A stretch of 19,003 bases of DNA from positions 1 to 19,003 of the forward strand of contig JACQZI010000019.1 of NCBI GenBank assembly GCA_016207825.1. Reading direction: 5' to 3'. Below, in pieces: positions 304 to 19,003 of the stretch (positions within the stretch are counted from its first letter, which is position 1; each line of letters starts with the position of its first letter). The notes beneath the pieces were generated by a model, which did not search any database, was not told the origin of the DNA, and saw only the letters and a program-made list of their open reading frames with translations. The position numbers and the translations under genes were made by a program. Origin of the DNA: Planctomycetota bacterium. Lineage in GTDB: Bacteria > Planctomycetota > MHYJ01 > JACQXL01 > JACQZI01.

Positions 304-374
304 GCTTCGTTACATTACAGGGGCGTTCCCGATTAGGTCGGGACTCCACTATCGTTCCGCGCTTTGCTTCGTTA
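304..374. repeat. Palindromic repeat flanked by 9-bp direct repeats
   Basis: A core hairpin CCCGA-ttagg-TCGGG (328-342) is followed by GGGACTCC (340-347). The same octamer occurs in other repeats in this window. The core is bracketed by direct repeats GCTTCGTTA at 304-312 and 366-374, which could be a target-site duplication. It lies just downstream of the stop codon of the yjdF-like gene. The arrangement CGTnCCCGA...TCGGGACTCC recurs in inverted orientation at 18915-18936. Confidence 0.5.
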
Positions 375-387
375 ATGAATTGGTTAA

Positions 388-987
388 TTAGCGATTGAGC
401 TGCCGGTCGTGAATCTTGGAAAATAAAGCGAGCGATATGATACTGCCTATAGCACAATAAAGCATATCCCATTGGGCATCCCAGATATCCCCCTGGCTCC
501 CGAGGTAATTATCCACCCCGCTTCCCAAGACCATGGCTGAAGCGAATTCCAGAAGTTCAAAGAGCGCGCTGAACGCCACACACGAGGCAAATACAACTAT
601 CGTCAACCACCGGAATCCGTTTATCGCCTTGTTCCTGGCAAATATCTCCCGGAAAAGGATTGCCGGGATAAAGCCCTGGGCAAAGTGTCCGATGCGGTCG
701 TAATTGTTCCTGATAAAACCGAACCAATCCTGCATCCAGAATCCAAGCGGGACCCTTTCGTAAGTGTAATGCCCTCCGTAGATGAGAATCAGGGCGTGGA
801 TAAATAATAATATGCCCAGTAAAGGCGTCAGCTTTATATTTTTAAGATAGAGGGCGGCAAAAACGATTAATCCGCCGAAGACCCAGAAGACCTCCATTAC
901 CCAGGTCAGCCGGTCAAAGGGCTGTGTTCCCGATGCGATAAGCACCAGCCACAGGGTGATGTAAAGTATGTATCCGAATATTTTCAT
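388..987 (-). CDS. YjdF-like (DUF2238) inner-membrane protein
   Basis: This is a 199-residue polytopic membrane protein of the YjdF/DUF2238 family, whose biochemical role is not established. It shows hydrophobic segments near residues 5-20, 35-48, 55-70, about 130-150 and 175-190. It also has the family's conserved blocks GGHYTYERVP, NNYDRIGHFAQGF and GSQGDIWDAQWDM, with acidic and His residues near the membrane surface. Length is typical of the family. The start ATG at 985-987 overlaps the bioB stop codon as ATGA, so translation is probably coupled to bioB. Whether the pairing means a role in biotin metabolism is unknown; it may be only shared transcription. No terminator is obvious downstream, but a palindromic repeat follows. 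Confidence 0.85.
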   Translation of the reverse strand: MKIFGYILYITLWLVLIASGTQPFDRLTWVMEVFWVFGGLIVFAALYLKNIKLTPLLGILLFIHALILIYGGHYTYERVPLGFWMQDWFGFIRNNYDRIGHFAQGFIPAILFREIFARNKAINGFRWLTIVVFASCVAFSALFELLEFASAMVLGSGVDNYLGSQGDIWDAQWDMLYCAIGSIISLALFSKIHDRQLNR

Positions 988-1982
988 TTGCTAATGCTCA
1001 GTCCAAGGTCCTTTATCATCTGCAGGTCTTCTTCAACCGAACGGCCCGGCTGGGTAAGATAACCGCCTATCATCATCCCGTCCGCGCCGGCATAGAATAT
1101 CCACGACTGCATATCGCGCAGGTTCTTTTCGCGCCCTGCGCAAATCCTGATATTCTGTTTGGGCATAACATAACGGAAGATGGCAATGGTGCGTAAAATC
1201 TCTTGCGGGGTGAGCAGTTTCGCACCCTCAAGCATGGTGCCCTTTATCGGGATAAGGAAATTCAGGGGGACCGAATCCACTTCCAGTTCCCGCAAAGTCA
1301 ATGCCATATCAATCCGGTCTTCCCAGGTTTCGCCCATGCCAAAGATTCCGCCGCTGCAGACTTTTAATCCGGCTTTTTTAAGGCTCTTTATAGTTTCTAT
1401 GCGCTCATCATAAGTATGAGAAGAGCATACATGGGAAAAGAACCTGCGGGATGTTTCCAGGTTATGATGGCATTTAATCATGCCGGCGTCTTTAAGCTTT
1501 TTGGCATTGGCAACGGAAAGCCTGCCCAGCGATCCGCAAAGATATGGGATAGATTTTGAATTTGTAGTTTGGGATTTGGGATTTGAGGAAATCTCCGTGG
1601 AGACTTTACAGATAGCATTGATTTCCTTTCCGGTCAGTTCGTTTCCGCTGGTGACGATGCTGAATCCGTGCGCGCCGATTTCCGCGGAGCGTTTATATCC
1701 TTTTTTTATCTCCTCCGCGCTGACCAAGGGGTATATTTTCGCTTCGGCTGAATGATGGCTTGACTGCGCGCAGAACTTGCAGTCTTCGGCGCAGGAGCCG
1801 CTTTTGGCATTGATAATGGAGCAGAGATTTACTTTATCACCTTTAAAATGCGTACGGAGGGTGTTCGCACCGTGGAGCATATTCCATAGGTCGCACTCCC
1901 TGGAAACAAGCCACTTGGCGTCTTCATGGCTGATGAGTTTTCCTTCAAATATATTGGCGAGAATTTCGGTCAGTTTATTCAT
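984..1982 (-). CDS. bioB: Biotin synthase, radical SAM
   Basis: Converts dethiobiotin to biotin by radical sulfur insertion, the last step of biotin synthesis. The 332-residue protein has the radical-SAM cluster motif CAEDCKFC (Cys64, Cys68, Cys71). It also has the BioB blocks HHNLETS (172-178), CSGGIFGMGET (209-219) and RICAGRE (279-285). By alignment from memory with E. coli BioB, the auxiliary-cluster ligands Cys128, Cys188 and Arg260 correspond to Cys149, Cys209 and Arg279. E. coli Cys97, however, is Ser108 here (FSIVTSG), and an extra Cys171 precedes HHNLETS. This looks like the anaerobe-type (Type II) enzyme rather than the E. coli type. Residues about 132-146 (NPKSQTTNSKSIP) look like an in-frame repeat insertion. 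No strong Shine-Dalgarno precedes the ATG. It lies 62 bases after atpC and overlaps the next gene by 4 bases. Confidence 0.95.
   Translation of the reverse strand: MNKLTEILANIFEGKLISHEDAKWLVSRECDLWNMLHGANTLRTHFKGDKVNLCSIINAKSGSCAEDCKFCAQSSHHSAEAKIYPLVSAEEIKKGYKRSAEIGAHGFSIVTSGNELTGKEINAICKVSTEISSNPKSQTTNSKSIPYLCGSLGRLSVANAKKLKDAGMIKCHHNLETSRRFFSHVCSSHTYDERIETIKSLKKAGLKVCSGGIFGMGETWEDRIDMALTLRELEVDSVPLNFLIPIKGTMLEGAKLLTPQEILRTIAIFRYVMPKQNIRICAGREKNLRDMQSWIFYAGADGMMIGGYLTQPGRSVEEDLQMIKDLGLSISK
1547..1588 (-). repeat. In-frame repeat-like insertion in bioB
   Basis: On the coding strand this stretch reads as a tandem of the type CAAATCCCAAATCCCAAAC followed by TACAAATTCAAAATC. It encodes the low-complexity segment NPKSQTTNSKS between helix and strand elements of the TIM barrel. 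E. coli and Bacillus BioB have a loop roughly ten residues shorter at this place. The heptamer CAAATCC occurs twice in tandem. It resembles a dispersed intergenic repeat type I have seen in uncultured bacterial genomes. That recognition is from memory and is not verified. Confidence 0.5.
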
Positions 1983-1989
1983 TTAACCG

Positions 1990-2044
1990 CTTGATTTTCA
2001 AATTAACTAATTAACTTACTTTGCGCCTTTGCGGTGCAATCAAG
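1990..2044. repeat. Inverted-repeat-bounded gap between atpC and bioB
   Basis: Arms CTTGATT (1990-1996) and AATCAAG (2038-2044) are perfect complements and end exactly next to the atpC stop codon (2045-2047). Between them are TTAACTAATTAACTTA and CTTTGCGCCTTTGCGGTG (2019-2036), the latter resembling a repeat common in many bacterial genomes. There is no U tract, so I do not call it a terminator. It is probably another small dispersed repeat, and transcription may read through into bioB. Confidence 0.4.
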
Positions 2045-2302
2045 TTATTCCACCGAATCAGCCAAAATGGTGGTTTTAGTCGGGGTTGTTTCCATCATGC
2101 CGCCTGTTATGGTAAACACATGTTCATCCTTTTGTCCATCCGGTCGAACAGTCACCTTTCCGGCGTTAAGCGCCGCGATAAACGGGGCATGGCCAACCAA
2201 AACGCCCAAATAACCTTTATGGGCAGGGACGATAAGCGACTGCGCCGAGCCCTTAAAAACCATTTTTTCCGGGGTAATTATTTCTATCTCAAAACTTTTC
2301 AT
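2045..2302 (-). CDS. atpC: ATP synthase epsilon subunit, short form
   Basis: Epsilon subunit of the F1 central stalk, coupling the c-ring to gamma. At 85 residues it contains only the N-terminal beta-sandwich (EIITPEKMVFKG at 7-18, HAPFIAAL at 38-45, GGMMETTPTKTTILAD at 67-82). It ends where the C-terminal two-helix domain of the usual 130-140-residue protein would begin. That helical domain carries the auto-inhibitory and ATP-sensing function in E. coli and Bacillus, so inhibition by epsilon should be absent here. Short epsilons are known in some phyla, so this may be ancestral rather than damage. A repeat abuts the stop codon, however. The ATG overlaps the preceding gene's stop as ATGA. Confidence 0.93.
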   Translation of the reverse strand: MKSFEIEIITPEKMVFKGSAQSLIVPAHKGYLGVLVGHAPFIAALNAGKVTVRPDGQKDEHVFTITGGMMETTPTKTTILADSVE

Positions 2303-2556
2303 TCTATTACCTTATAAATAACATCATTATCACGGACATGGGCTTTCACCTTGATGCCAATCCCATCTCCATTATTCGCTTTCTGGACAGATTTATTTTC
2401 CGCCTGCATAGAATCAACCTTTTGGGTCAGGTTGGTCGTATGTCCTTTTACGTGGATAGTATCTCCCACATTAAGCGGCCCGGAGGTAATCCTAATCGCC
2501 GCCACGCCAATTTTGCCAAAATAGTGCTCTACTTTACCGATTTCTTTCGCTTCCAC
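2299..2556 (-). CDS. EF-Tu domain-2-like small protein
   Basis: An 85-residue protein resembling a stand-alone translation-factor domain 2 (beta barrel). It has the features IGKVEHYFGKIGVAAI, LNVGDTIHVKGHTT, the DFTQ-like NLTQKVDSMQ, and GDGIGIKVKAHVRDNDVIYKV. Such proteins are annotated as 'translation elongation factor-like' and their function is not known. I chose GTG at 2554-2556 as start, because AGGAGG (2566-2571) lies 9 bases before it but directly against an in-frame TTG at 2563-2565, too close to serve that codon. The Shine-Dalgarno overlaps the atpD stop region, and the 3' end overlaps atpC by 4 bases. It is therefore translated as part of the ATP synthase operon, an unusual place for this family. 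Confidence 0.85.
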   Translation of the reverse strand: MEAKEIGKVEHYFGKIGVAAIRITSGPLNVGDTIHVKGHTTNLTQKVDSMQAENKSVQKANNGDGIGIKVKAHVRDNDVIYKVIE

Positions 2557-2571
2557 TGCAAGCAACCTCCT

Positions 2572-3984
<1,413 letters not shown>

Positions 3985-4006
3985 TCAACTCCTTCATTAA
4001 ACGCAT

Positions 4007-4963
4007 TTATTTCATAGCTTCAGCGCCGCTGACGATATCAAGCAATTCCTTGGTAATACTTGACTGGCGCGCTTTATTAAATATTAAAGTTAATTCATCC
4101 ATCACTTCATTGGCATTATCGGTTGCGTTGCGCATTGCAATCATCCGCGCACTGTGTTCGCTGGATAAAGCATCCAACAGCAACCGGTAGAAAGTCATTT
4201 CAATATAGCGCGGGACCAGGACATCCAACATTGCATTTGGGTCAGGCTCAAAAAGATACCCCATTCCCCCGCTCCACTGTTCTCCACCGTTACGTCGGGG
4301 TGATAGGGAGTCCCCGTAGGGGGCTAATTGCGGCTTCGTCTCTTTAGATTTTTTCCCATTCGCGCCTTCCGACAAAAACGGTACTAAGCGCATTACTTTC
4401 GGGCGGTAAACCATAGCGTTGACGTATTCCGTATAAACAATCCACACTTCATCAATCGCCCCTTTTTCGAAATCCCGCATAAATGGGGTGATAATCTCGC
4501 GGGACATGCCGGAATCTATATTAGGCGGTATCTGATGATAGGATTTAAAAACATTGCGATTTGTCTTTTGAAAATAATCCATTGTTTTTTTGCCTATTGC
4601 CGTAATCTTGAAAATGGCGTTGGCATTTTCATTCATAAAGCGGGAAACGGTCCTTAAGAGATTGGCATTATATCCGCCGCAAAGGCCCTTTCCGGAAGCG
4701 ATGGCAACAAGCCCGATGCGGCTTACAATCCTGTTTTCGGCAGTCTCCCGATGTAATAATTTATGCGTCATAAGCTCTGGCGGCAGTGTGGCTAGAATAT
4801 TATCCATAATAGACTGTAACTTAGCGGAAAAGGGACGGATGGCGTTCAGCTTTTCCTGCGCTTTTTTAAGCTTGGAAGCGGAAACCATCTCCATCGCCCG
4901 CGTAATCTTTTTAATATTGTTTACGCTTCTGATTTTCCGCTTTATTTTTCTTATTCCGAGCAT
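4007..4963 (-). CDS. atpG: ATP synthase F1 gamma subunit with an inserted loop
   Basis: Central rotor shaft of F1. The 318-residue protein is longer than the usual 285-295. Its conserved ends are clear: IRKIKRKIRSVNNIKKITRAMEMVSASKL (residues 4-32) forms the N-terminal helix, GKGLCGGYN (91-99) is a family block, and the C-terminal helix carries RMIAMRNATDNA. The extra length falls in the variable loop at about residues 203-234, rich in Lys, Pro, Gly and Ser. Most of that loop is encoded by a palindromic repeat-like DNA segment; the YLFEPDP block resumes right after. The reading frame is intact, so the subunit should still fold. The ATG is 3 bases after the atpA stop and lacks a good Shine-Dalgarno, suggesting translational coupling. 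Confidence 0.95.
   Translation of the reverse strand: MLGIRKIKRKIRSVNNIKKITRAMEMVSASKLKKAQEKLNAIRPFSAKLQSIMDNILATLPPELMTHKLLHRETAENRIVSRIGLVAIASGKGLCGGYNANLLRTVSRFMNENANAIFKITAIGKKTMDYFQKTNRNVFKSYHQIPPNIDSGMSREIITPFMRDFEKGAIDEVWIVYTEYVNAMVYRPKVMRLVPFLSEGANGKKSKETKPQLAPYGDSLSPRRNGGEQWSGGMGYLFEPDPNAMLDVLVPRYIEMTFYRLLLDALSSEHSARMIAMRNATDNANEVMDELTLIFNKARQSSITKELLDIVSGAEAMK
4262..4333. repeat. In-frame palindromic repeat inside atpG
   Basis: This stretch encodes residues about 211-234 of gamma (PQLAPYGDSL followed by SPRRNGGEQW and SGGM). It contains a hairpin AGTCCCC-gta-GGGGGCT (4309-4325) and GGAGTCCC (4307-4314), the reverse of the GGGACTCC octamer found in other repeats here. The decamer GTCCCCGTAG is shared with the intergenic hairpin element at 16407-16535. 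Its composition differs from the flanking gamma codons, and it adds a multiple of three bases without a stop. Confidence 0.6.
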
Positions 4964-4966
4964 ATT

Positions 4967-6502
<1,536 letters not shown>

Positions 6503-6532
6503 ATAATCGATCTCCTTTCAGAACGCTTATGT

Positions 6533-7171
6533 CTATATCTTGCCGTCATTGCCAGCAGTTAGTATAACTTGCTTAGCGCGTTTTATACGCCGATATACGA
6601 TAATGAAAAGCACCGCGACAACAACAGCAATAAAAAGCACTATTTTAACATCAGAGATAAAGAAAGCAATCGCTTTTATATGGGCGCTGAAATAATAACC
6701 AACCCAAACCAAAAAGGGAACGCTTATCAGGGCGGCCAGGAAATCCATTACGAAAAATCTGCTTACTTTCATGCGATACGCTCCGGCAAGGGCGTATATC
6801 CCGAATCTCAATCCCGCGGCAAACCGCCCTAAGAAAATGGTTATACGCCCGTATTTGGCGTAAAAATGGCCGATGCGCTCCTGCCGTCGGGGGGTAAAAA
6901 TCCAGGAGAAAAGCCTCATGCTGAAAAGCGTCTTCCCGAAATGGTAACCAAGCCAGTAAACTATCAAATCACCGATTAAAATTGAACTCATGGTAACAGC
7001 TATCATAATATATATATTCGCCGTGGTTTCCGCCGCGATAAAACCGCCCGCCAAGAGGAAAATATCTTCCGGCAAAGGAAATCCGAACGATGTCAGCAAT
7101 AACGCCGCGCTAACCGCAAAATAGGAAAGCGATTCCGCATTTACTATAAAAAAATCCAATGCTTTTTCCAT
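6533..7171 (-). CDS. DedA/VTT-family membrane protein
   Basis: A 212-residue polytopic inner-membrane protein of the DedA (SNARE-associated/VTT) superfamily. Visible family marks are the re-entrant segment FGFPLPEDIFLLAGG (29-43, Glu35 and Asp36), GDLIVYWLGYHFG (67-79), and the arginine block GRFAAGLRFGIYALAGAYRM (115-134, Arg116 and Arg122). A C-terminal transmembrane helix near 172-193 is followed by a basic tail. Characterised DedA proteins need the proton motive force, and some recycle undecaprenyl phosphate or other lipids. The substrate here cannot be read from sequence. It sits between atpH and atpA with only 5 and 30 bases around it, so it is co-expressed with the ATP synthase. That is an unusual operon member. 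Confidence 0.9.
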   Translation of the reverse strand: MEKALDFFIVNAESLSYFAVSAALLLTSFGFPLPEDIFLLAGGFIAAETTANIYIMIAVTMSSILIGDLIVYWLGYHFGKTLFSMRLFSWIFTPRRQERIGHFYAKYGRITIFLGRFAAGLRFGIYALAGAYRMKVSRFFVMDFLAALISVPFLVWVGYYFSAHIKAIAFFISDVKIVLFIAVVVAVLFIIVYRRIKRAKQVILTAGNDGKI

Positions 7172-7176
7172 ACGGT

Positions 7177-7752
7177 TTACAAGACGTCTATATTACTCAG
7201 TTTTCCCTGCTCAATCCGGCTGAGCATGTGAGTTTTTAGGTCATGCAAACGGCTTTTTACGCTTCCGTCAATGACCATATCATCTATTTGCAATATTATT
7301 CCGCCCAAAGTCGTTTTATCTATGCTCGTTTCCAAGATAATTTCCCCGGCATTAATCCAGCCCAATCGTTTCTTTATTTTTTCCTCTTCAGAAGAAGTCA
7401 ACGCGGCAAAAGACCTCACATTAACCCGGACGACTCCATTATATTGGTCCAAAAGAAACTTGTAGGTAGTAATAATATCCGGCAGGTATTCCATGCGCCG
7501 TTTCCTGATAAGCAATTCCATGAATTTTCCGCACAGCGGCGACAAAGAACCATTTGTAATTTTATTCAGCAGCTCATACTTGTTTTTGGCGTTTATTAAA
7601 GGGTTATTAAGCACCAGCTTTAACTTGCCCACCGCATTATACGATTCGCCGAGATATTCGAGCTCGTCTTTTATCTCTTTGATAAGGCTCTTCGCCCTGG
7701 CCATGTTAAACACGGCTACGGCATAACGTTTGGCGACTATATCAATAAGCAT
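7177..7752 (-). CDS. atpH: ATP synthase delta subunit
   Basis: Delta (OSCP-like) subunit linking the F1 alpha subunits to the peripheral stalk. The 191-residue protein is about the usual length. The N-terminal helical domain begins AKRYAVAVFNMA (7-18) and includes VLNNPLINAKNKYELL. The C-terminal signature TLGGIILQIDDMVIDGSVKSRLHDL spans residues 148-172. The start is ATG, 5 bases after the atpF stop, with only a weak purine-rich site. Translation is probably coupled to atpF. The gene is followed by dedA instead of atpA. Confidence 0.95.
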   Translation of the reverse strand: MLIDIVAKRYAVAVFNMARAKSLIKEIKDELEYLGESYNAVGKLKLVLNNPLINAKNKYELLNKITNGSLSPLCGKFMELLIRKRRMEYLPDIITTYKFLLDQYNGVVRVNVRSFAALTSSEEEKIKKRLGWINAGEIILETSIDKTTLGGIILQIDDMVIDGSVKSRLHDLKTHMLSRIEQGKLSNIDVL

Positions 7753-7757
7753 GTTTC

Positions 7758-8264
7758 TTATTTCTTCCCGGGAATTTCATCCATAAACTTTTCCGCCAGC
7801 TGGTGATGGATTTTCTCGTCCATGGTGTTTCCGATAATCTTGGCGGTAGTCTGGAAAGAAAGGTTTACCACTTCTTTTTTGAGTTCCACCAAAGCTTTTT
7901 TAGTTTCCTGCGCGATTTCTTCCGCGGCTTTCTGCAAAATTTTATCCGCCTGGGCGTGGGCTTCGGAGATTATTTCCGTCTTGGCGGCCAAGCCTTCCTT
8001 GATGGCTTCCTGCATTTTATCGTAAGCCGTCTTTTCGATTTTCTTCAGTTCCGCCTGGTATTTATCCTTCAACGTGGAAATTTCTTCCTTGCTTTTCTCG
8101 ATTCCCTGGTAAGTCTCTTTGATTTCGTTGTTCCTTTCATCCAGGTATTTAAGCACCGGCTTAAAAAGGAACTTGCTTAAAACAAGGACCAGGAATATGA
8201 AACTGATAGTCAAAATGAGAATCACCTGCCATTGGGCTCCCATCATCTGTAAAAAAGTATCCAT
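7758..8264 (-). CDS. atpF: ATP synthase F0 b subunit
   Basis: Peripheral-stalk subunit. The 168-residue protein has one N-terminal transmembrane helix (about residues 12-34), then FKPVLKYLDERNNEIKETYQ (34-53). A long charged coiled coil rich in Glu, Lys and Ala runs to the end, the normal architecture for b. The ATG at 8262-8264 is preceded by a purine-rich AGAGGAGG ending 2 bases upstream, closer than ideal. Only one b-type gene is present, so the stalk is presumably a homodimer. Unlike the tightly packed neighbours, a 94-base gap with a strong hairpin separates it from atpE. Confidence 0.95.
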   Translation of the reverse strand: MDTFLQMMGAQWQVILILTISFIFLVLVLSKFLFKPVLKYLDERNNEIKETYQGIEKSKEEISTLKDKYQAELKKIEKTAYDKMQEAIKEGLAAKTEIISEAHAQADKILQKAAEEIAQETKKALVELKKEVVNLSFQTTAKIIGNTMDEKIHHQLAEKFMDEIPGKK

Positions 8265-8299
8265 AGCCTCCTCTCTGTAGCAAAGAGCGTAGAGCTTAT

Positions 8300-8345
8300 A
8301 GCGTAGGGATTATCCGGCGCCTTGTGCCGGGATGTGCCCTACGCT
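8300..8345. repeat. Nested hairpin between atpE and atpF
   Basis: Arms AGCGTAGGG (8300-8308) and CCCTACGCT (8337-8345) are perfect complements around an inner stem CCGGC/GCCGG (8314-8318 with 8326-8330). A further partial copy AGCGTAG lies at 8286-8292. It occupies the only sizeable gap inside the ATP synthase operon. In the mRNA it could protect or terminate part of the transcript downstream of atpE. It may equally be a dispersed palindromic repeat. No U tract follows on the minus strand, so simple termination is unlikely. Confidence 0.65.
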
Positions 8346-8358
8346 CTATGCTTATTAT

Positions 8359-8685
8359 TTAATGCCCTGCCCCTTTTGCTTTAAGATAACCATCCTCGGC
8401 TTGCATGGCATTAACTTTTTCCACCCCGTATTTCGCCTTGATTACATCATCAAGGTTTCCCTTAAGGAAGATACCGGTAACAAGCAGGGTATAAATGACC
8501 AGCGTTTCAATCAGGGCCAAGCCGATAATCAAGGCCGTGAAGATACGGCCGCCTGCTTCGGGCTGGCGGGCGATGGATTCCACCGCGCTGCTGATTGCCT
8601 TTGCCTGACCAAACGCCCCGGCAAGGGCCGCTAAAGCCATTCCTAATCCGATGCTTAATCCCAAAAGTCCAATATTCCAATCCAC
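8359..8685 (-). CDS. atpE: ATP synthase F0 c subunit (rotor ring)
   Basis: Forms the membrane rotor ring that carries the coupling ion. The 108-residue protein has two transmembrane helices joined by the polar loop RQPE (40-43), plus an unusual hydrophilic tail of about 32 residues after residue 76; typical c subunits are 75-90. The carboxylate is Glu60 in helix 2. Gln27 in helix 1 lies 33 residues before it, and Thr61 and Tyr65 follow it. These positions match Gln32, Glu65, Ser66 and Tyr70 of the Na+-binding Ilyobacter ring, so Na+ coupling is possible. The start is GTG at 8683-8685. AAGGAG directly abuts it, but GGTGA a few bases further upstream has proper spacing. Confidence 0.95.
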   Translation of the reverse strand: MDWNIGLLGLSIGLGMALAALAGAFGQAKAISSAVESIARQPEAGGRIFTALIIGLALIETLVIYTLLVTGIFLKGNLDDVIKAKYGVEKVNAMQAEDGYLKAKGAGH

Positions 8686-8722
8686 TCCTTCTCACCCCCC
8701 TTCGTCTGTTATAAACTTTAAA

Positions 8723-10005: not shown

Positions 10006-10035
10006 TTATTTAAACCGCTCCAGATAAATCACGTA

Positions 10036-10064: not shown

Positions 10065-10158
10065 TTAATATGGATAAACAGTTTACTTCCCTGTTTTTAT
10101 ATAACCTATTTCCTTAAATATATCTTAAGATATGCGCTGCCTTTTCCCGATAAAACAA

Positions 10159-10164
10159 TATAAT
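10159..10164 (+). promoter_or_regulatory. Possible -10 box for the L,D-transpeptidase gene
   Basis: A perfect TATAAT lies 31 bases before the ATG at 10196. No convincing -35 hexamer is found 16-19 bases upstream, so the promoter may be weak or activator-dependent. A strong AAGGAGG at 10183-10189 is spaced 6 bases from the start. The region is shared with the divergent ATP synthase promoter. Confidence 0.4.
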
Positions 10165-10195
10165 ACCGCTTTATTTTAATTGAAGGAGGATTAGA

Positions 10196-11431
10196 ATGAA
10201 AAAGTTTATCTTTTTGGTTATTGTCATTGTTGTGGGTTATTTTGTTTACACCAAATATTTCAAGAAACCAGCCGCCCCGGAACCGCCGTCCAATCCTCCG
10301 GTTGCCACACAACCCCCTGCAGCCAACGATGAACAAGTGGTTAATACCGATGGAATGAAACTCTTTAAAGATGGTGAGTTTAAAAGCGCCTCCCGTCAAC
10401 TGGAAAAAGAACTGAAATCAGCTCCGGCAAGCGAACAGCCCACTATCTTAAGCACCCTGGCGCAATGTTATGATAAGCTTGAAAATAAAACCAAGGCAGT
10501 TGAAACCTGGAAGCGCCTGGTAAATGATTTTCCCTCAAGCCAGCTATGCGGAGATGCTTATTACGCCCTAGGCAGGAATGAATCAGAAACAGAAAAACAG
10601 ATGGAAAACTATAAAAACGCGGTGGAAAAATATCCGGAAAGCGCCGGGGCTAAGATGGCTGCCTGTGACCTGGGTGATTATTACCTTTCCCTTGCATCGT
10701 TAAACGAAGTGGAAAGGCAAGCCAAGGCGCGCAAGTGTTATACCCTGGCTTTGAAAAACAATCTCTCCGCGGAAAAAAGAGCGGATGTAAAACGCAAGCT
10801 GGAAGCTATTAACCGCAATCTTTTCTTCTCGAGCATGATTAATCCTTCGGATAGCATCGCTTATAAAATCCAGCCCGGAGATAATATCTGGAAAATTTCC
10901 CGAAACTATAAACTTCCCGAAGGCAGCGACAGCGAAGGGCAACAATACCGCGGTTTAATACGACTTATCAATCATATGCAGACATCGAACATTAGGGCCG
11001 GCGATACCTTGAAAGTCATTACCGGGAAATTCAGCATGGAAGTGGATAAAAGCGCTTTTATATTAACGCTATATCTAAACGGCGAATACATCAAGGAATA
11101 CAAAATAGCCCATGGCAATCCCAAAGAAAGCCCGACGCCCGAAGGCACTTTCCATATCAAGGGAGACAGCCGCCAGGTTAATCCTGTCTGGTATTTTACG
11201 GATAAAACCAAGGGCACGACAGAAGCGATTCCTTTCGGCGACCCACGCCATGTCATCGGCACGCGCTGGATGGGTTTTAAGGAAAACCCTCAATTAGGCA
11301 TTCACGGCACCAGCGCACCTGAAAGTATCGGCAAAGCCGTTACCAACGGTTGTATCAGGCTGGTTAACCAAGAAGTAGAGGAGCTTTTTGATATCGTCGG
11401 CGGTGATACCGAGGTTGTGATCCACGAATAA
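10196..11431 (+). CDS. TPR-LysM-YkuD L,D-transpeptidase
   Basis: Envelope enzyme predicted to make or modify peptidoglycan cross-links or to attach proteins. The 411-residue protein begins with a membrane anchor (3-19) and a Pro-rich linker (25-43). Next come a helical TPR-like region (about 48-205), with repeats around AQCYDKLENKTKAVETW and YKNAVEKYP, and a LysM-type glycan-binding domain (222-274, YKIQPGDNIWKISRNY to RAGDTLKV). The YkuD catalytic domain runs from about 280 to 411. The active-site block is HGT (370-372) through NGCIRL (384-389), with His370, nucleophile Cys386 and Arg388. Asn384 replaces the commoner Ser of SxGC. The start has an excellent Shine-Dalgarno. It is divergent from the ATP synthase operon. 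Confidence 0.93.
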   Translation: MKKFIFLVIVIVVGYFVYTKYFKKPAAPEPPSNPPVATQPPAANDEQVVNTDGMKLFKDGEFKSASRQLEKELKSAPASEQPTILSTLAQCYDKLENKTKAVETWKRLVNDFPSSQLCGDAYYALGRNESETEKQMENYKNAVEKYPESAGAKMAACDLGDYYLSLASLNEVERQAKARKCYTLALKNNLSAEKRADVKRKLEAINRNLFFSSMINPSDSIAYKIQPGDNIWKISRNYKLPEGSDSEGQQYRGLIRLINHMQTSNIRAGDTLKVITGKFSMEVDKSAFILTLYLNGEYIKEYKIAHGNPKESPTPEGTFHIKGDSRQVNPVWYFTDKTKGTTEAIPFGDPRHVIGTRWMGFKENPQLGIHGTSAPESIGKAVTNGCIRLVNQEVEELFDIVGGDTEVVIHE

Positions 11432-11465
11432 CTTTTACATCCCTTTGTTGTTTTTGTAACCGATG

Positions 11466-11502
11466 AAAGGTTTAGCTTCGGGGGAGCCTCCGCCGAACCT
11501 TT
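11466..11502 (+). terminator. Rho-independent terminator after the L,D-transpeptidase gene
   Basis: The arms AAAGG (11466-11470) and CCTTT (11498-11502) and the inner arms TTCGG and CCGAA enclose a GC-rich loop. A T-rich run (ATTTCTTATCTTTT) follows on the plus strand. The structure overlaps the stop codon of the convergent minus-strand gene. It terminates best in the plus direction. Confidence 0.6.
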
Positions 11503-12427
11503 ATTTCTTATCTTTTATCTTTTCCTTCTTTTCTATCTCGTATTGGCTGAAAGTAACGCTTATCGGATTAACTTCATTCCTTCTCTCAAGCACCTTTCCT
11601 TTGCTGTCCAGCATAGTGAATTTCATTGAAGAAAACAGCATGAATTTATCCTGATAAGTATAAGTAAAATCAATTGTTATCCTATCAAGGAAATTGTCTT
11701 CGTTATCCGCCTTGGTAATATCAAGCTGTTTTATTCCCCATAATTTGTTGTATTTCTGGGGAGTTATCGTACCAATCAATTTTTCTTTTTCTGTCCGCAG
11801 CTCGAACTTTGTTATCTGATAATCCTTGTTAATCCAGATAGCCAGTGATTCGAATGGATTTTTTTCTTCCGTCTCTTTCTTACTCCTATCACGCAGGCGG
11901 GGTGTTTTCTTTTCCGATTTTTCCTTCTTCTTGGGAATTGCTTCCACCTTGTTAAGGTTACGAAGGTCCTTGCTTAACACCATTTCATATTTATCCTCAT
12001 CTGAAAGGGAATTTAATGCTTTAACGACTTCATTCACAGGGTTGGCTGCCTGGAATAATTGCCTCATGGCTAATTCCATCAATTGCGCACATATCCTGGT
12101 ATCTTCTCTTCCATCCTCGCCGAAATAAGGAGGGATTTCCCTGGGCTTGACTGTAACCGGCTTATTCGGCTCCCAAGCCAGCTCATAATCGACATTGTCC
12201 AAAATCACCTTGCTCCGCAAATTAACGGATTTAACGATCTCCGGAGATTTAATAAAGCAAGTATAACGACGGAGTTCTTCTTTAGTCAGGTCGTAATAAC
12301 TATCCGCGCATTTTTGGAGTATCTCGCCGGCGGTTTCCTCCTTATCTTCTTTTGCCCCGTCTTCGGCTCTTATGGTTAACCCGGCCATTAATCCAGCCAA
12401 ACACAAACCGATTATAAAATAGCGCAT
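11501..12427 (-). CDS. Secreted protein of unknown function
   Basis: I do not recognise this 308-residue protein. An N-terminal signal peptide is clear (MRYFIIGLCLAGLMAGLTIRA, probable cleavage after Ala21), with no lipobox. The mature part is charged, with a Lys/Glu/Arg-rich low-complexity segment at about 168-191. A beta-rich C-terminal half follows (ITKFELRTEKEKLIGTITP, DRITIDFTYTYQDKFMLFSSMKF). The pattern of alternating strands would fit a LolA/LppX-like lipid-carrier fold, but no motif proves it. GGAGG lies about 5 bases before the ATG. It is convergent with the L,D-transpeptidase and divergent from folC, so operon context gives no clue. Confidence 0.8.
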   Translation of the reverse strand: MRYFIIGLCLAGLMAGLTIRAEDGAKEDKEETAGEILQKCADSYYDLTKEELRRYTCFIKSPEIVKSVNLRSKVILDNVDYELAWEPNKPVTVKPREIPPYFGEDGREDTRICAQLMELAMRQLFQAANPVNEVVKALNSLSDEDKYEMVLSKDLRNLNKVEAIPKKKEKSEKKTPRLRDRSKKETEEKNPFESLAIWINKDYQITKFELRTEKEKLIGTITPQKYNKLWGIKQLDITKADNEDNFLDRITIDFTYTYQDKFMLFSSMKFTMLDSKGKVLERRNEVNPISVTFSQYEIEKKEKIKDKK

Positions 12428-12447
12428 AATGCCTCCATATTTATATT

Positions 12448-12475
12448 TTGACTTAATCCGGATATAAGATATACT
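12448..12475 (+). promoter_or_regulatory. Promoter of folC with a very short leader
   Basis: TTGACT (12448-12453) and TATACT (12470-12475) are separated by 16 bases. Transcription would begin near 12482, about six bases before the ATG at 12488. That fits the absence of a Shine-Dalgarno and suggests nearly leaderless translation. Confidence 0.55.
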
Positions 12476-12487
12476 TTTCTCTTTAAT

Positions 12488-13735
12488 ATGTCAAGCCTAA
12501 AAACAAACGCGTTTAAGGATTATAGTTCCGCATACAGATACCTTTGCCGTTTTACGGATTATGAGCGCATGGTAAAATTCCACTCTCCAAGAAAGGCGTT
12601 TAACCTTAAGAAAATCACCGCCTTCTTAAAGGCGCTCGGCAATCCGCAGGATAAAATAAAAACCATCCATATCGCCGGCACCAAGGGCAAGGGCTCAACC
12701 GCCATTTTCCTGTCCCGCCTGCTTCAGGCAAGCGGGTTTAAAACCGGATTATTCACCTCGCCACATCTGGTTGATTTAAGCGAACGGATTCAGATAAACG
12801 GCGCGCCCATCTCCCGCCATGCCTTTACATATATGATGAATAAGCTTCGCCCATATCTCAAACGCTTTAAACCAACATTTTTTGAGATAATGACCACGCT
12901 TGCCTTGTGTTATTTCGAGGAAGAAAAAGTGGATTATGCGATAATGGAAACCGGACTGGGAGGAAGACTTGATGCGACAAACGCCATAAATCCGCTCCTT
13001 AGCTTAATCACCCGTATAGATTTTGACCACATGGATAAATTAGGCAACACCATTTCTTCTATCGCAAGGGAAAAAGCCGGGATTATCAAGCCTAAAACAC
13101 CAATCTTTACTATAAAACAACTACCTGAGGCAGATAAAGTTATCCGCGCGGTTACCTGCAGGCAAAAATCCCCGTTAAAGATTATCCCGCCATTTTCCGG
13201 TAGGCTTCCGGTTCACGGTCGCCACCAGGAAGAAAACTTTGCCCTCGCCTTAAGCGCCTTAAAATATATCTTACCTAATAAAAACCATGAGCTAAAAACT
13301 AAAATGCCTAGTCTCGCTCTGCCTGCTCGAATCGAGGTTGTCTCCAAAAGCCCTACGACTATTCTGGACACTTCGCATAATCCCGTATCAATCAAGGCGC
13401 TGGTTAAAACCATCAAAGAAGAATTCCTGTATCGAAAATTAATCCTTGTCCTAGGTATCATGCGCGATAAAGAAACGGATAAAATACTTGGGTTTATATT
13501 ACCTCTTGCTGACGCCGTTATATTCACCCGGGCAGACAACCCGCGCTTCCTTGCCCCGATAGAATTCATTCCTTACATAAAAGACATGAAGTTATCCATC
13601 CCGATATTCCTTGAACCTGATTGCAAGGAAGCATTAAAAACAGCACGGGTGCTGGCATCAAAGAAAGATTTGATAGTAATAACGGGCTCGTTCTATCTGG
13701 CAGGGGCGCTGTATAAAAAGTTACATCCGGGTTAA
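12488..13735 (+). CDS. folC: Folylpolyglutamate/dihydrofolate synthase
   Basis: Mur-ligase-like ATP-dependent enzyme adding glutamate to folates, and in many bacteria forming dihydrofolate from dihydropteroate. The 415-residue protein has the P-loop GTKGKGS (64-70), SPHL (91-94), ETGLGGRLDATN (154-165) and His181. Lys196, in REKAG, is the likely carbamylated lysine. The C-terminal Mur-ligase motif DTSHN (294-298) is also present. The family's usual PGR before the C-terminal domain is PAR here (279-281). Preceding it, about 263-274 (PNKNHELKTKMP) is a variable linker. The start is supported because residues 13-40 already align to the family N-terminus. No Shine-Dalgarno is visible. It is convergent with the GH57 gene. 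Confidence 0.93.
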   Translation: MSSLKTNAFKDYSSAYRYLCRFTDYERMVKFHSPRKAFNLKKITAFLKALGNPQDKIKTIHIAGTKGKGSTAIFLSRLLQASGFKTGLFTSPHLVDLSERIQINGAPISRHAFTYMMNKLRPYLKRFKPTFFEIMTTLALCYFEEEKVDYAIMETGLGGRLDATNAINPLLSLITRIDFDHMDKLGNTISSIAREKAGIIKPKTPIFTIKQLPEADKVIRAVTCRQKSPLKIIPPFSGRLPVHGRHQEENFALALSALKYILPNKNHELKTKMPSLALPARIEVVSKSPTTILDTSHNPVSIKALVKTIKEEFLYRKLILVLGIMRDKETDKILGFILPLADAVIFTRADNPRFLAPIEFIPYIKDMKLSIPIFLEPDCKEALKTARVLASKKDLIVITGSFYLAGALYKKLHPG

Positions 13736-13873
13736 TTGTCATTCTGAGCGTAGTGAAGAATCTCATTTCAAGCACAAAAAGAGGCCCTTCCCCCATACCC
13801 AAATGGTTTCCAGTCGGTTGACTGAATACCGAATATCTTTCTATGCCATTTAGGTGCGGGGCGAGGGTGACAG
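13736..13873. repeat. MITE-like full-length palindrome between folC and the GH57 gene
   Basis: The element begins TTGTCATTCTGAGCG right behind the folC stop and ends GCGAGGGTGACA (13861-13872), so the termini are imperfect inverted repeats. Inside, CCCAAATGG (13798-13806) pairs with CCATTTAGG (13846-13854), CCCTTCCCCC pairs loosely with GGGGCGAGGG, and AGTC-ggtt-GACT (13812-13823) forms the tip. No coding potential is seen. It fills the 165-base convergent gap and may act as a bidirectional terminator. Confidence 0.65.
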
Positions 13874-13900
13874 GCTAAAGCTTCAATCTGTTTTGACCTT

Positions 13901-16405
13901 TTAGTGTGAGCCTTCAAGATGAACTCTAAGATAACCGCTCAATTCCTTGAAATGTTTTATCCATATTCTGGCATGGGGATCCCAAGCATCTGCTTTCTTA
14001 TGCATTTCCGGATAAGTCTGCTGCGCCAGGAAAAAGCAAATATTCTGCGCCTGCCACAATTCTGGCTCTAAAGAAAGCTGGGTAAACAGATTGATAAACT
14101 CGGTAACGGTTTCCAATGTCTTTTCATTCCTGGGCGCCACCATCAACCGCTCCATCAGGTGATTAAACACACGGTTTGCCGCTATATTTAAAGCCGTCTT
14201 ATCAAGCTCAACCGGGCGCCTTTTTATCTCTTCCATGACCTGTTTCATTCTGGATAGATCCAATTCTTCGTCTTCCATTGTCTTTTCCCCGAAGGCGTGC
14301 CTGCCCATAGCCGAAAGAAGCGCGTTGTTTAAAATAAAACCGCTGATGGCCGTCAAGGCCTTGGGCATCGGGACTTTTGCCTCGCGTAATATTTCCATCA
14401 AAGGATCGTAGCGTTCGTATATCTGCTGGAAAAACGCCTCGGTATCTTTCATGGTATTAGCGACTATCTGCTCCAGTATCCGGCGCTGGTCATCTTTGAA
14501 CAAATGCCTTAGAGAATAATCGTGCGTTTGGAAATGCTTATCGATAAGATTAATAATTTCAGGAATGCTTCCTTTCATCGTGGCGCTTTTTATTTCCTTC
14601 TTCATTACCGTATACGACTCCTCGTTTATATAAAGGCTGACCCCGCCCAAAAGGTTATGTTCCCCCATATAAAGCATCCCGAAATTGACCATCGTTTCTT
14701 CCAGTGTGATTTTGGATTTTATTCTGGTTTTTCCGAGAATTACTTTATTACGCCCGCTTGTTAAAACTTCGTGATACTCTTTATGTATATTGTAACAATA
14801 AAGCTCGGTTTCTTCTCCGCTTCCGTTACCATTGAATCCATTATGATTAAAAAGGGACATGATGGCGAAGTGCGCGCCTACGCTCACCAAGGTCGCTTCC
14901 ATCGGACGGACCAGCTTTTCGTAAACGATGGCGCCGTTCGGGTAATCCGCAAGGTTGCCTTTCGCCTCGGCTAAATTATTGATGAATACGGGCTCCAAGT
15001 TTTTACCCGTCAGCTCCCTGGTCAACTGGATAGCCCTTGCCGCATACTGCATCACCTGCACAGTTTCTATCCCGGAAATATCGTCAAAGAACCATCCGCA
15101 ACTCGTATACATGAGCATCGTGTGGCGCTGCATTTCCAAGAGCTTGAGCGCGAACATCTTCTTGTTCTGGGAAAGCTTTTCAATTGCGTGCTTCCGGAAA
15201 AACTCGTCTATCGCGTTTTCGGTCCCGTCCGCGTTATGCAAAATCACATCTATATAATCGTTCCTGGCATCCCAGGGGTTTTTCACGTATTGGGCGATGT
15301 CTTTTGCGTAAATATCGCTTAAGCGGTCGCGCAGATCGTCCATCGCCTCCCTCAAGGGATTTCTCCAGGCCTGTTTCCATTCCGGATGTGCGCCGCTGTT
15401 GCACCCGCAATTATTCTGCCAGCGCTCGACCCCGTGGATACAGCTCCATGAGGTGTTTTCTATTATTTCCGCTTCGTACATGGGCGGATGTTTTTCCAGG
15501 AATTCGCCATAGATGGTCAGCTTGGCGAGCTTCTTTGATTCCACGTAATGCAGGCAATATGCCAGGGCCATATCGGCAAAGCGGTGGTGGTGTCCGTAAG
15601 TCTCGCCGTCCGTCGCCACATTGATTAACTGCGCCTCGTCGGACTTTTCCGGCGCCGAACCAATCAGGCGGTTGGCAAAAGCCTCCCCGTTATTCAAAAG
15701 CGTGCCGAAGGCGACTTCCTGGGCTATCGGCCCGTCATAGAAGAACAAGGTTATCCCTTTACCCGAAGGCAGCCTGCAGGCATAAGAGCGCCTCGGGTCT
15801 ATTTTGGCGCCGTTAACATCGTGCCAGGCCGTCTCGCCGATTTTACGGATGCGCTTTGCCTGGTGCGGAGCCAGTATGGTGAATTTTATTCCCTGCTCGA
15901 CGAGTATCTCCAGCGTTTCCAGGTTCACCGCGGTTTCCGGCAGCCACATGCCTTCAGGCTTGCGGCCGAAACGGTATTCGAAATCCCGAATGCCCCAGAT
16001 TACCTGCGTTTCCTTGTCGCGCCGGTTTGCCAGCGGCATGATGATATGGTTATAACCCTGGGCCAACGCCGCGCCGTGCCCGGAAAACTTCTCCTGGCTG
16101 AAGCGGTCGGAATCCTGTATCAGTCGGTAAACCTTCGGGTCGTGCCGCTCCATCCAGGAAAGGAGCGTCGGGCCGAAATTAAAGCTCATCCCGACGTAAT
16201 TGTTGACGATATCCGTGATGAGACCCTTGTTATCCAATATCCGCGAACAGGCGTTCGCCTCGTAACACTCCGCAGTGATGCGCTCGTTCCAGTCATGGTA
16301 AGGCAGGGCGGATTCCTGGAGTTCCACTTCCTCCAGCCACGGATTCTCCCGGGGCGGCTGGTAAAAATGCGAATGTATGCAAAGATATCTCACGGCTCCA
16401 CCCAC
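13901..16405 (-). CDS. GH57-family glycoside hydrolase with DUF3536 region
   Basis: Large GH57-type protein, probably acting on alpha-glucan; the exact reaction is not known. The 834-residue sequence opens with IHSHFYQPPRENPW (10-23), the hallmark of this subgroup. The predicted nucleophile is Glu157 in WLPE, and the second catalytic acid Asp266 is in ATDGETYGHHH. The Cys-rich stretch NNCGCNSGAHPEWKQAWR follows, then a long helical C-terminal half (about 380-834) typical of DUF3536 proteins. The GTG at 16403-16405 has AGGAG 7 bases upstream, contributed by the adjacent hairpin repeat. A second in-frame GTG at 16391-16393 would start just before the conserved block. It lies downstream of glgB on the same strand, so a role in glycogen turnover is likely. 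Confidence 0.9.
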   Translation of the reverse strand: MGGAVRYLCIHSHFYQPPRENPWLEEVELQESALPYHDWNERITAECYEANACSRILDNKGLITDIVNNYVGMSFNFGPTLLSWMERHDPKVYRLIQDSDRFSQEKFSGHGAALAQGYNHIIMPLANRRDKETQVIWGIRDFEYRFGRKPEGMWLPETAVNLETLEILVEQGIKFTILAPHQAKRIRKIGETAWHDVNGAKIDPRRSYACRLPSGKGITLFFYDGPIAQEVAFGTLLNNGEAFANRLIGSAPEKSDEAQLINVATDGETYGHHHRFADMALAYCLHYVESKKLAKLTIYGEFLEKHPPMYEAEIIENTSWSCIHGVERWQNNCGCNSGAHPEWKQAWRNPLREAMDDLRDRLSDIYAKDIAQYVKNPWDARNDYIDVILHNADGTENAIDEFFRKHAIEKLSQNKKMFALKLLEMQRHTMLMYTSCGWFFDDISGIETVQVMQYAARAIQLTRELTGKNLEPVFINNLAEAKGNLADYPNGAIVYEKLVRPMEATLVSVGAHFAIMSLFNHNGFNGNGSGEETELYCYNIHKEYHEVLTSGRNKVILGKTRIKSKITLEETMVNFGMLYMGEHNLLGGVSLYINEESYTVMKKEIKSATMKGSIPEIINLIDKHFQTHDYSLRHLFKDDQRRILEQIVANTMKDTEAFFQQIYERYDPLMEILREAKVPMPKALTAISGFILNNALLSAMGRHAFGEKTMEDEELDLSRMKQVMEEIKRRPVELDKTALNIAANRVFNHLMERLMVAPRNEKTLETVTEFINLFTQLSLEPELWQAQNICFFLAQQTYPEMHKKADAWDPHARIWIKHFKELSGYLRVHLEGSH

Positions 16406-16406
16406 G

Positions 16407-16535
16407 TTGTCACTCCTGCGAAAGCAGGAGTCCTTTCACAATACTGGATTCCCGTTTTCACCCCATGTCCCGCTTTGCGGGACAGGGACTCCCTTTTGGT
16501 CCCCGTAGCGAAGCGGAGCGGGGCGGGAATGACAA
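16407..16535. repeat. MITE-like hairpin element between glgB and the GH57 gene
   Basis: Terminal inverted repeats TTGTCACTCCTGC (16407-16419) and GCGGGAATGACAA (16523-16535) match at 11 of 13 positions. Two internal perfect hairpins are visible: ACTCCTGC-GAAA-GCAGGAGT (16412-16431) and TGTCCCGC-ttt-GCGGGACA (16466-16484). GGGACTCC (16485-16492) and GTCCCCGTAG (shared with the atpG insert) follow. It has no coding capacity. It abuts the GTG of the GH57 gene at 16405 and lies 20 bases from the end of glgB. Confidence 0.75.
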
Positions 16536-16555
16536 TTAAATAATACATATTTATA

Positions 16556-18556
16556 TCAGCGGTAAAATATCACAATACCCAGCGGCGGTAATGTCAGTAA
16601 AAGCGAATAGCCAAATCCATGCCCGGGCTCCTGCTTTGCCTCCACCCCGCCGAAATTTCCGTGGTTCGTCCCGCCGTATATTCCGGAATCGCTGTTTAGG
16701 ATCTCTTTCCAGAACCCGCCCTCCGGCACGCCCACCCGGTAATGGTATCGCGGAGTCGGCGTGAAATTGCAGGCAACCAGTATTTTCTTATCAGAGCTCG
16801 TGCCTTTCCGGGTGAAGCTGATGACGCTCTGTTCCATATCCATGTGGTCAATCCAATCGAATCCGGCCTGCTCGAAATCCAGTTCATAGAGCGCCGGCTC
16901 GCTTTTATATAACTTATTCAAATCCTCCACCCAGCGCTTGACCTCTTGGTGCGGATAATACTGCAGGAGATGCCAGTCCAGGCTCTGCTCGTGGTTCCAT
17001 TCATCCCGCTGGGCGAATTCATCCCCCATAAAAAGCAGTTTCTTCCCCGGATGGGTGAACAGATAGCCGAAAAGGAGTTTCAGGTTGGCGAATTTCTGCC
17101 AATCATCCGCCGGCATCTTGCCGATAAGCGAGCCCTTCCCGTGCACCACCTCGTCGTGTGAAAGCGGCAATGCGAAATTCTCCGTAAAGGCATACCACAT
17201 GCTGAAGGTCAAATCGTTGTGGTGATATTTGCGGTAAATCGGGTCTTTGGAAAAATAGCATAGAGTATCGTGCATCCAGCCCATATTCCATTTTAAGCCG
17301 AAGCCAAGCCCGCCGACCGAAGTCGGCCTGGTGACCATCGGCCAGGCAGTCGATTCCTCCGCGATGGTTATGGCATCCGGAAACGCACCGTAAATGGTTT
17401 TGTTCAGGCACTTGATAAAATCTATTGCCTGCAGGTTTTCCCTGCCGCCGAATTCGTTGGGAATCCATTCACCGTCTTTCCTGGAATAATCCCGGTAAAG
17501 CATGGATGCCACCGCGTCCACCCTGAGCCCATCCGCATGGTATTTATCCATCCAGAAAAGCGCGCTGGAAATGAGGAAATTCTTCACCTCGCAGCGGCCG
17601 TAATTAAAGATGTAGCTTTTCCAGTCCGGATGGAAGCCTTCCTTATAATTGCTGTGTTCGTAAAGATGCGTCCCGTCGAAATAAACCAGGCCATGCTCAT
17701 CCGAAGGAAAATGAGAAGGCACCCAATCCAGGATTACCCCGATATCGTTCTGGTGGAGCAAATCCACCAGATACATAAAATCCTGCGGTGTGCCGTAGCG
17801 CGAAGTCGGCGCGAAATAGCCCAGGGATTGGTAGCCCCAGGAACCGTAAAACGGGTGCTCCATGACAGGTAAAAGCTCCACGTGGGTAAACCCCATCTCC
17901 TTGACGTATTTGACCAAATCCGGAGCAAGCTCGCGGTAGGAAAGTAACCTGGAGCCTTCCTGCGGATTCCGGCGCCAGGAGCCCAGGTGGACTTCATAAA
18001 CGGAAATCGGGGCGCTGAGCTTATTATGGTCATGGCGCTTGGACATCCAGCCGGCGTCGTCCCATTTATAATCTATATCCCAGACGATTGAGGCGGTCTT
18101 TGGGGGCGTTTCGCAGTGGAAGGAAAAAGGGTCCATCTTTTCCGCCTTGTAGTTATTGTGCTTGCTTGCGATGTGGTATTTATAAACAGTCCCTTGCTTA
18201 AGTCCCGGAATAAAGCCTTCCCAGATGCCGGAGGAATCCCAGCGTACGGCTAAGGGGTGTGACGATTTATTCCATCCGTTAAAATCGCCGATGACAAAAA
18301 CGCCCTCGGCATTCGGCGCCCACACTGCAAAATAAACTCCTGAGACGGCGACTCTCCCTCTTTGCCCCGAACTGCCTGGTCGGCAGTCAGGGGATGAATC
18401 AGTCGTCCCATCCGAAGGAATGTGACTTTCATCTATTTTCATGACGTGAGCGCCAAGTTTATCGTATAACCTGAAATGCGAGCCCTCCTTAAAGAGGTAG
18501 ACATCGTGGTCGGTGATTAAACCCTTGCCGTAAACGACAGAGTGTTTTGAATTCAT
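16556..18556 (-). CDS. glgB: 1,4-alpha-glucan branching enzyme
   Basis: GH13 enzyme that makes alpha-1,6 branches in glycogen. The 666-residue protein has an N-terminal CBM48 module (about 72-160, [23 protein letters not shown]). In the catalytic barrel, nucleophile Asp347 lies in [15 protein letters not shown], the acid/base Glu400 is in TIAEES, and His467-Asp468 are in [22 protein letters not shown] and the C-terminal beta domain are also present. Residues about 46-69, between LGAH and GVYFAVWAP, are additional to the family and encoded by a palindromic repeat. The start ATG has no clear Shine-Dalgarno. It is upstream of the GH57 gene, with which it may be co-transcribed despite the intervening hairpin element. 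Confidence 0.97.
18350..18421. repeat. In-frame palindromic repeat inside glgB
   Basis: This stretch encodes residues about 46-69 of GlgB ([20 protein letters not shown] and RGRV). It holds the hairpin ACTGCC-tggtc-GGCAGT (18371-18387), extended by CCCC (18365-18368) and GGGG (18390-18393). Branching enzymes normally pass from LGAH to the CBM48 strand with a much shorter linker. The insertion keeps frame and has no stop. The inserted peptide is Ser/Gly/Pro/Arg-rich, unlike its surroundings. Confidence 0.6.
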
Positions 18557-18771
18557 ACGAAGTAGAGTATTTAACTAAAAATACGCTTCGGGTCAAATGA
18601 AATGCGGTTAATGTTATTTTAACAGGGACTCTTAAGAGACCTATATCCCTAAAGGGGAGGCTGCCGCACAGAGACTATAATTTTAGTCAAAAGAAAAGAG
18701 ATTGCTGATATTCTTAACAGGACTGGACAAAACTTGAACCATAAAAACGTAAAGATAATTTTGTTTCGCCT
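18557..18771. other. Non-coding region upstream of glgB with small palindromes
   Basis: No plausible gene is seen. Palindromes are CTCTTAAGAG (18629-18638), CCCT-aaa-GGGG (18647-18658) and GACTA-taattt-TAGTC (18674-18689). A degenerate repeat octamer GGGACTCT occurs at 18625-18632. On the minus strand, TTGACC about 16 bases before TTAAAT could be a weak glgB promoter with a leader under 25 bases. That is not convincing. The palindromic cluster may be operator sites or repeat debris. Confidence 0.35.
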
Positions 18772-18807
18772 AAAAAGAAAGGGGCGAATTTTACTCCGCC
18801 CCCTTTT
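18770..18807 (-). terminator. Rho-independent terminator of the right-edge gene
   Basis: The stem GGGGCG (18781-18786) with CGCCCC (18797-18802) has a 10-base loop. On the minus strand it is followed by TTTCTTTTT. It lies about 30 bases after the stop codon of the partial gene. A short T run on the other side means it could also work weakly in the plus direction. Confidence 0.8.
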
Positions 18808-18833
18808 ATCAAATTATCAACGTATAAGCTTGC

Positions 18834-19003
18834 CTATACCTGTGAAACTTTAACAGACAGATACAACTGCGGAACGTCCTTGTAAACGGGCCCGTTATCC
18901 TTGCGTAGTAGAACGGAGTCCCGATTCTCGGGGACGAAGTCCAAGTGAGAAGCACCGCCCGGAGTAAAGCGATTCAGTTTTAGCCCCTTATTTATTAATT
19001 CCA
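18834..19003 (-). CDS. C-terminal end of an unknown protein (partial)
   Basis: The frame is open from the window edge to TAG (18834-18836) and gives the last 55 residues of a protein. Its ending, PQLYLSVKVSQV, followed by a proper terminator, suggests a real gene. I do not recognise the family. The segment DFVPENRDSVLLRKDN falls on a palindromic repeat (18915-18936), so part of this tail may be repeat-derived. The N-terminal portion lies outside the window. It is on the same strand as glgB, but the terminator separates them. Confidence 0.55.
   Translation of the reverse strand, partial: ELINKGLKLNRFTPGGASHLDFVPENRDSVLLRKDNGPVYKDVPQLYLSVKVSQV
18915..18936. repeat. Palindromic repeat inside the right-edge gene
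   Basis: On the minus strand this reads CGTCCCCGAGAATCGGGA followed by CTCC. It forms a stem of TCGGGAC with GTC(C)CCGA around a GAA loop. It matches the unit at 324-347 at the outer CGTnCCCGA and TCGGGACTCC blocks. In frame it encodes FVPENRDS. Confidence 0.55.

Follow-up and report, generated by a model that had tools for sequence, protein, structure and literature searches.

Repeats that fold back and are translated as part of a host protein have been described in several bacterial groups. Fusions involving RPE, ERIC, Correia and YPAL elements have been reviewed, in-frame MITE fusions being known in enterobacteria and Neisseria (PMC2229807). Rickettsia RPE, 105-146 bp long, are foldback palindromes found between genes as well as in frame in genes of conserved proteins, with an unclear target-site duplication (PMC2229807). 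In-gene REPs encode 20-30 aa, sometimes two to a gene, in Opitutus terrae, R. conorii, Thauera, Xanthomonas and others (PMC3733652). The GTAG/CGTC REPs are short GC-rich hairpins, mostly intergenic and often grouped, with some in frame in genes (PMC3733652). ERIC/RU-1, the 107-bp form of Correia, YPAL (PMC2229807) and QMITE1 of Coxiella (PMC5896051) are non-autonomous foldback elements, sometimes translated in host proteins; the named MITEs are ~100-400 bp long, most have longer terminal inverted repeats than F1, and several have target-site duplications.

We analysed a window of 19,003 nt, contig C19 of a planctomycete MAG (2.89 Mb, 97.6% complete). The window contains members of F1, a dispersed GC-rich palindromic element marked by the octamer GGGACTCC and mostly 56-77 bp long, which, length apart, shares the features listed above for RPE, for GTAG/CGTC REPs and, as a probably non-autonomous foldback element, for the MITEs. 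As in the RPE-like class, F1 copies are many, dispersed and both inter- and intragenic, with in-frame insertions missing from orthologues. F1 differs from RPE in sequence (it does not have the Rickettsia-specific RPE sequence and is restricted to one genus among 30 genomes), in its shorter length and in its hosts, which are planctomycete MAGs (one from deep-mine fluids), whereas RPE reside in an obligate intracellular alphaproteobacterium. It is also shorter than the named MITEs, with no clear duplication. Judged by these sequence patterns, F1 appears to work like the selfish DNA of Rickettsia, although neither the two lineages nor the sequences of their elements are related.

GTAG/CGTC REPs bear an unpaired GTAG or CGTC tetranucleotide as a tag at one end of the stem-loop, and their GTAG class is linked to a cognate RAYT transposase. 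Unlike them, F1 has ends without the tag and is confined to one genus among the genomes searched, and no full-length RAYT was found in the source genome. The tag was found at the ends of none of 96 copies inspected with their flanks (hairpin type CGTCCCGATAAATCGGGACTCC left out); the ends read GCCCC...GGGGC, and CTAC, where present, is internal and confined to some of the copies. Because there was neither tag nor RAYT, we kept F1 out of the GTAG/CGTC REP superfamilies, although its behaviour is like theirs. The first-pass annotation of the window knew of no described case for a genome of this kind; PMC3733652 in fact describes intragenic REPs in several Proteobacteria and in a member of the Verrucomicrobia (PVC group), Opitutus terrae.

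We consider it very probable that F1 and its relatives belong with REP, RPE and MITE as mobile palindromes that fold back and are not autonomous, filtered by selection and spread within one planctomycete genus.

Structure and copy number of F1

The first-pass annotation had placed GGGACTCC at positions 340-347, 4307-4314, 16485-16492 and 18915-18922. All four sites were recovered (0.45 expected; four or more in 0 of 200 shuffles). Genome-wide (2.89 Mb) the octamer has 169 copies against 43 for the reversed control, a ~4-fold excess; in a 1.0-Mb genome sample it was the top over-represented 8-mer (63 vs 12.6 expected). The site at 340-347 is intergenic and belongs to F2, a related family of short elements; that at 16485-16492 is in an intergenic F1 variant inside a longer inverted-repeat composite. 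Of the two sites assigned to genes, 4307-4314 does belong to an in-frame F1 member in atpG, while 18915-18922, at the right edge, gave no sign of insertion. Features of the window are listed in Table 1; an Rfam search of the window returned 0 matches.

Table 1. Repeat elements, related sites and a host gene in the window
Feature	Position	Strand	Evidence or context
F2 short hairpin (CGATTAGGTCGGGACTCCACTATCGTTCCGC), intergenic	330..360	+	nhmmer E 4e-8; clear members elsewhere in genome
bioB loop with GGGATTTG-type repeat	1545..1595	-	congener has in-frame F1 at same spot
atpG, F1 ATPase gamma subunit, host gene	4007..4963	-	ORF call
F1 in atpG, GCCCCCTACGGGGACTCCC...GTGGAGCGGGGG, +19 codons net	4266..4324	-	nhmmer/CM matches; congener without element
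Composite enclosing F1 variant; outer inverted repeats TTGTCA(C/T)TCC(C/T)GC	16405..16535	.	direct sequence reading
F1 variant, sub-form CATGTCCCGCTTTGCGGGACAGGGACTCCC...	16468..16528	+	intergenic, between gene 13901-16405 and glgB
glgB 27-aa in-frame insertion, contains hairpin	18344..18430	-	missing in congener and relative G006; fold z -1.55
F2-like octamer site in right-edge ORF, probably no element	18903..18924	-	E 0.19; gapless 89% second copy

The F1 family was built from self-comparison of the genome sample and iterated profiles, and its members were collected as nhmmer and covariance model (CM) matches. Thirty genomes were compared: the source genome, one congener and 28 other planctomycetes. 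The congener, Candidatus Brocadiia bacterium DeMMO3_52 (G001; a MAG of 1.2 Mb, 56% complete), is the closest named relative judged by AtpG. The covariance model found at least 111 copies in the source genome, so that the whole-genome search for the hairpin family ended far from 'few or none', and at least 108 in the congener; among the candidates listed for the 28 other planctomycetes there were two isolated weak matches.

The consensus is near GCCCC(C/A)TNCGGGGACTCCCTATTAATCGGGTGTCCCCGAAACGAAGTGGAGCGGGGC; its outer arms are GCCCC/GGGGC, and its inner hairpin, GGGGACTCCC/GGGTGTCCCC, has one mismatch. Folded as DNA, it has a foldback z of -2.2, equalled by 2 of 200 shuffles; the fold of the atpG copy is by now no better than expected by chance. 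Sub-forms swap the 5' arm (CTAC, ATTC, CCTTCGG or CCTGCCTACCGGC) and vary in the 3' arm (extra CCCCGCCTAAGCGGGG); one of them is GCCCCCGACGTTGTCGGGGGACTCCCTATCGTCCCGCGGAGCGAAGCGGAGCGGGGC, and near-identical copies of the CATGTCCCGCTTTGCGGGACAGGGACTCCC sub-form are located at C10:61858-61947 and C18:55743-55843. Covariation was dropped as support for F1: in the RNAalifold analysis of the alignment only 5 pairs appeared, with 0 compensatory changes and no covarying pairs.

Two copies, C8:6-60 and C13:6-60, have equal scores and coordinates and both stand at contig starts; the assembly probably breaks in repeats.

Occupied and empty orthologous sites

The presence/absence polymorphism that the first-pass annotation had proposed to look for among close relatives was found in both directions: atpG and the gene of a 1302-aa protein carry F1 in the source genome only, while glyS (twice), metG (twice) and bioB carry F1 in the congener only. 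The net gain at several F1 insertions is 57 bp. AtpG is 19 residues longer than its congener counterpart (78% identical, tblastn; net +57 bp in DNA). Its match to a bacterial gamma-subunit structure in PDB breaks between 198 and 233, with ~35 residues where the structure has a loop of ~8; in the AlphaFold model pLDDT is ~35 over most of 198-237, between the last core strand and the C-terminal helix, and this segment is predicted to be disordered.

In the 1302-aa protein gene, the congener has the empty site TTTT|GCCTGGG. The congener GlyRS beta has two F1 inserts, of 36 and 19 aa, both missing in the source genome (proteins 89.9% identical); its MetRS also has two, of 37 and 19 aa, missing in the source genome (flanking segments 93-95% identical), the first being absent from G006 as well. 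Alignment of BioB placed a GGGATTTG-type repeat in the source genome and F1 in the congener at the same spot. The GH57 glucanotransferase of the source genome has two F1 units, which G003 and G007 are without. One F1 copy, at AcnX, is common to both species.

Other F1 hosts with recognisable domains in the source genome include an ECF sigma factor (in the linker of region 2 and region 4), AcnX and a semialdehyde dehydrogenase (both at C-termini), a Kdo-type kinase and a TsaD-family protein; in the congener, besides MetRS and GlyRS beta, they include an SRP54 GTPase, IspD, a biotin-dependent carboxylase protein (directly before the biotin domain) and a PEP-utilising enzyme (C-terminus). In the ECF sigma factor, the carboxylase pre-biotin linker, MetRS and GlyRS beta, conserved domains flank the insert or run to the terminus.

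In the congener, the F1 copy at C23:5530-5590 (L217) has an in-frame TAG truncating a cyclophilin gene, which is intact in the source genome; F1 insertion is therefore not limited to harmless frames.

An octamer-bearing segment of ACS is missing in four relatives and shorter in the congener; in the ThiD2-ThiE octamer case, flank variability was too high to give boundaries.

With occupied and empty gene pairs in two congeners, the effects of inserts on essential enzymes become directly testable, as does the identity of the enzyme behind the movement of REP-like elements lacking a RAYT.

Probable movement of F1 and its distribution in genes and gaps

From the clean polymorphic insertions we infer that F1 transposes. 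The transposase search covered the Y1 family. In the source genome it returned only a truncated Y1_Tnp of 83 aa, below the RAYT cut-off, and no full-length RAYT; in the congener it returned only one full-length IS200 TnpA, with end hairpins unlike F1. This IS200 was rejected as the parent of F1 on account of its end hairpins (CCCCGCCTGTAAAGGCGGGG, CCACGCCTGTAAAGGCGTGG), despite an F1 copy 350 bp away. The 83-aa remnant (L080:1489-1740, on C32) is flanked by inverted copies of GGTGGGATGTGTCCC. No clear target-site duplication was seen at F1; there is at most GC/GCC, which is indistinguishable from the element's own short GCCCC/GGGGC ends.

One could speculate that F1 moves without RAYT, IS200 or any known MITE transposase and has been added time and again to essential enzymes of an environmental planctomycete genus (two insertions each in MetRS and GlyRS beta); we hold this reading only tentatively. 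If it is true, nature supplies a series of orthologues, some occupied and some empty, in which the tolerance of 19-residue insertions can be measured.

Alternatively, no transposase would be involved, and short palindromes would have propagated F1 among themselves through recombination, gene conversion or template switching. The absence of a matching transposase in the Y1 search would agree with this, as would the modular, nested architecture of F1, in which 5' and 3' hairpin arms have been swapped, and a pair of congener copies around ~2.5 kb that is missing at the single-copy site of the source genome; the clean insertions in atpG, glyS and metG, however, are at sites with no obvious prior homology, and we regard such a spread as rather unlikely. 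The pair just mentioned lies at C58:7824-10409 (L219) of the congener, the single copy beside AcnX at C7:223644 (L042) of the source genome; this locus looks like gain or loss through recombination between F1 copies.

The distribution of F1 was counted in 1.37 Mb of the source genome (about half) and 0.31 Mb of the congener (about a quarter), with genes called by a simple home-made codon-based caller, which recovered the expected genes of the window bar the truncated one at the right edge. In the source genome, 16 of 56 copies were in ORFs, against a coding fraction of 0.88 (binomial p 9e-25); the congener had 16 of 40 against 0.895 (p 4e-14). Random placement would put 88-90% of copies in ORFs; thus, genes are avoided by F1, yet not excluded. 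The first-pass view of a genome-wide palindromic family lying between genes and also within them, in frame, was supported, the sites in essential enzymes being loops, linkers or termini. These counts suggest that an environmental lineage has independently acquired protein-coding palindromic repeats on a Rickettsia-like scale, with 29-40% of the copies sampled lying in ORFs, so that obligate intracellular life is probably not required.

Strong concentration between genes, known also for REPs (PMC3733652), might mean that intergenic copies are mainly selected functional RNA hairpins (terminators or mRNA stabilisers) and in-gene copies are by-products. Selection against insertions in genes predicts the same bias equally well; furthermore, convergent gaps are not enriched (4 convergent, 23 unidirectional and 9 divergent gaps with F1, background 57/414/114), and most comparable sites differ in occupancy between the congeners. 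We find this explanation improbable.

Under the mobile-element reading that we prefer, F1 would insert with little regard to genes and selection would remove most of the in-gene insertions; those in frame in loops, linkers or termini would persist and be translated as short, probably disordered peptides. The surviving copies may be nearly neutral. Adaptation of the element to stop-free translation, proposed in the first-pass annotation, was not supported: an F1 copy has 3.9 of 6 frames open, with 3.5 in shuffles of the same composition and 3.0 in random genome DNA, and one congener copy brings a stop. Because frame openness is about what base composition predicts, such adaptation is not needed; stop-free reading of F1 is mostly a matter of GC content. 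A built-in length divisible by three was also ruled out, as F1 copies vary in length both within genes and between them.

Several elements suspected in the window did not hold up as F1 or F2 members. The atpA insertion, flagged as doubtful from the start, was ruled out by a gapless alignment of 511 aa to the congener at 94%. The insertion in glgB is real and in frame (27 aa, 81 bp), but its membership in F1 was not supported: the sequence is unique (0 second copies in the 1.37 Mb sampled), so that the insertion may stem from an element that has decayed or is of another kind. The right-edge octamer, first taken for an in-frame element, lies in 168 bp that match a second genomic copy without gaps; given this match, an insignificant F2 score and an ordinary fold, there is no evidence of an element at this site.

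We give very little credence to a reading in which the octamers are GC-rich hairpins that arose by chance and the protein loops vary in length in the ordinary way, their DNA being unrelated: the right-edge octamer and the glgB insertion do lack support as family members, and AtpG loop length differs among relatives anyway, but profile matches reach E values down to 1e-20 in two genomes, the octamer is in genome-wide excess and the 57-bp presence/absence carries the family sequence, and for F1 itself the covariance-model copy numbers and the occupied/empty pairs refute it.

F2 and other repeats

F2 is a shorter hairpin family (CCCGATTAGGTCGGGACTCCACTGTCGTTTCGC) having the octamer in common with F1. 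F2-like matches fall in MeaB, HflX and a Cas4-Cas1 fusion; the last (L059:2847-4652) has two in-frame matches. A degenerate GGGATTTG/TTTGGAATTTG repeat is dispersed in the source genome (e.g. C8:230294-230330) and makes up the variable BioB loop.

Tandem arrays were seen at 27 loci in the 1.37 Mb of the source genome and at 3 in the congener sample; all were wholly intergenic by the gene caller used. Examples are C10:146950-147215 (L067:6950-7215), C5:83161-83477 (L075) and C7:152132-152388 (L038). No arrays with any other period of at least 15 bp and at least 5 copies were present in the sampled sequence: the period was always 21-22 bp (or 44), with ~5-15 copies and a unit sequence that differs per locus. 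Such a period is about two helical turns.
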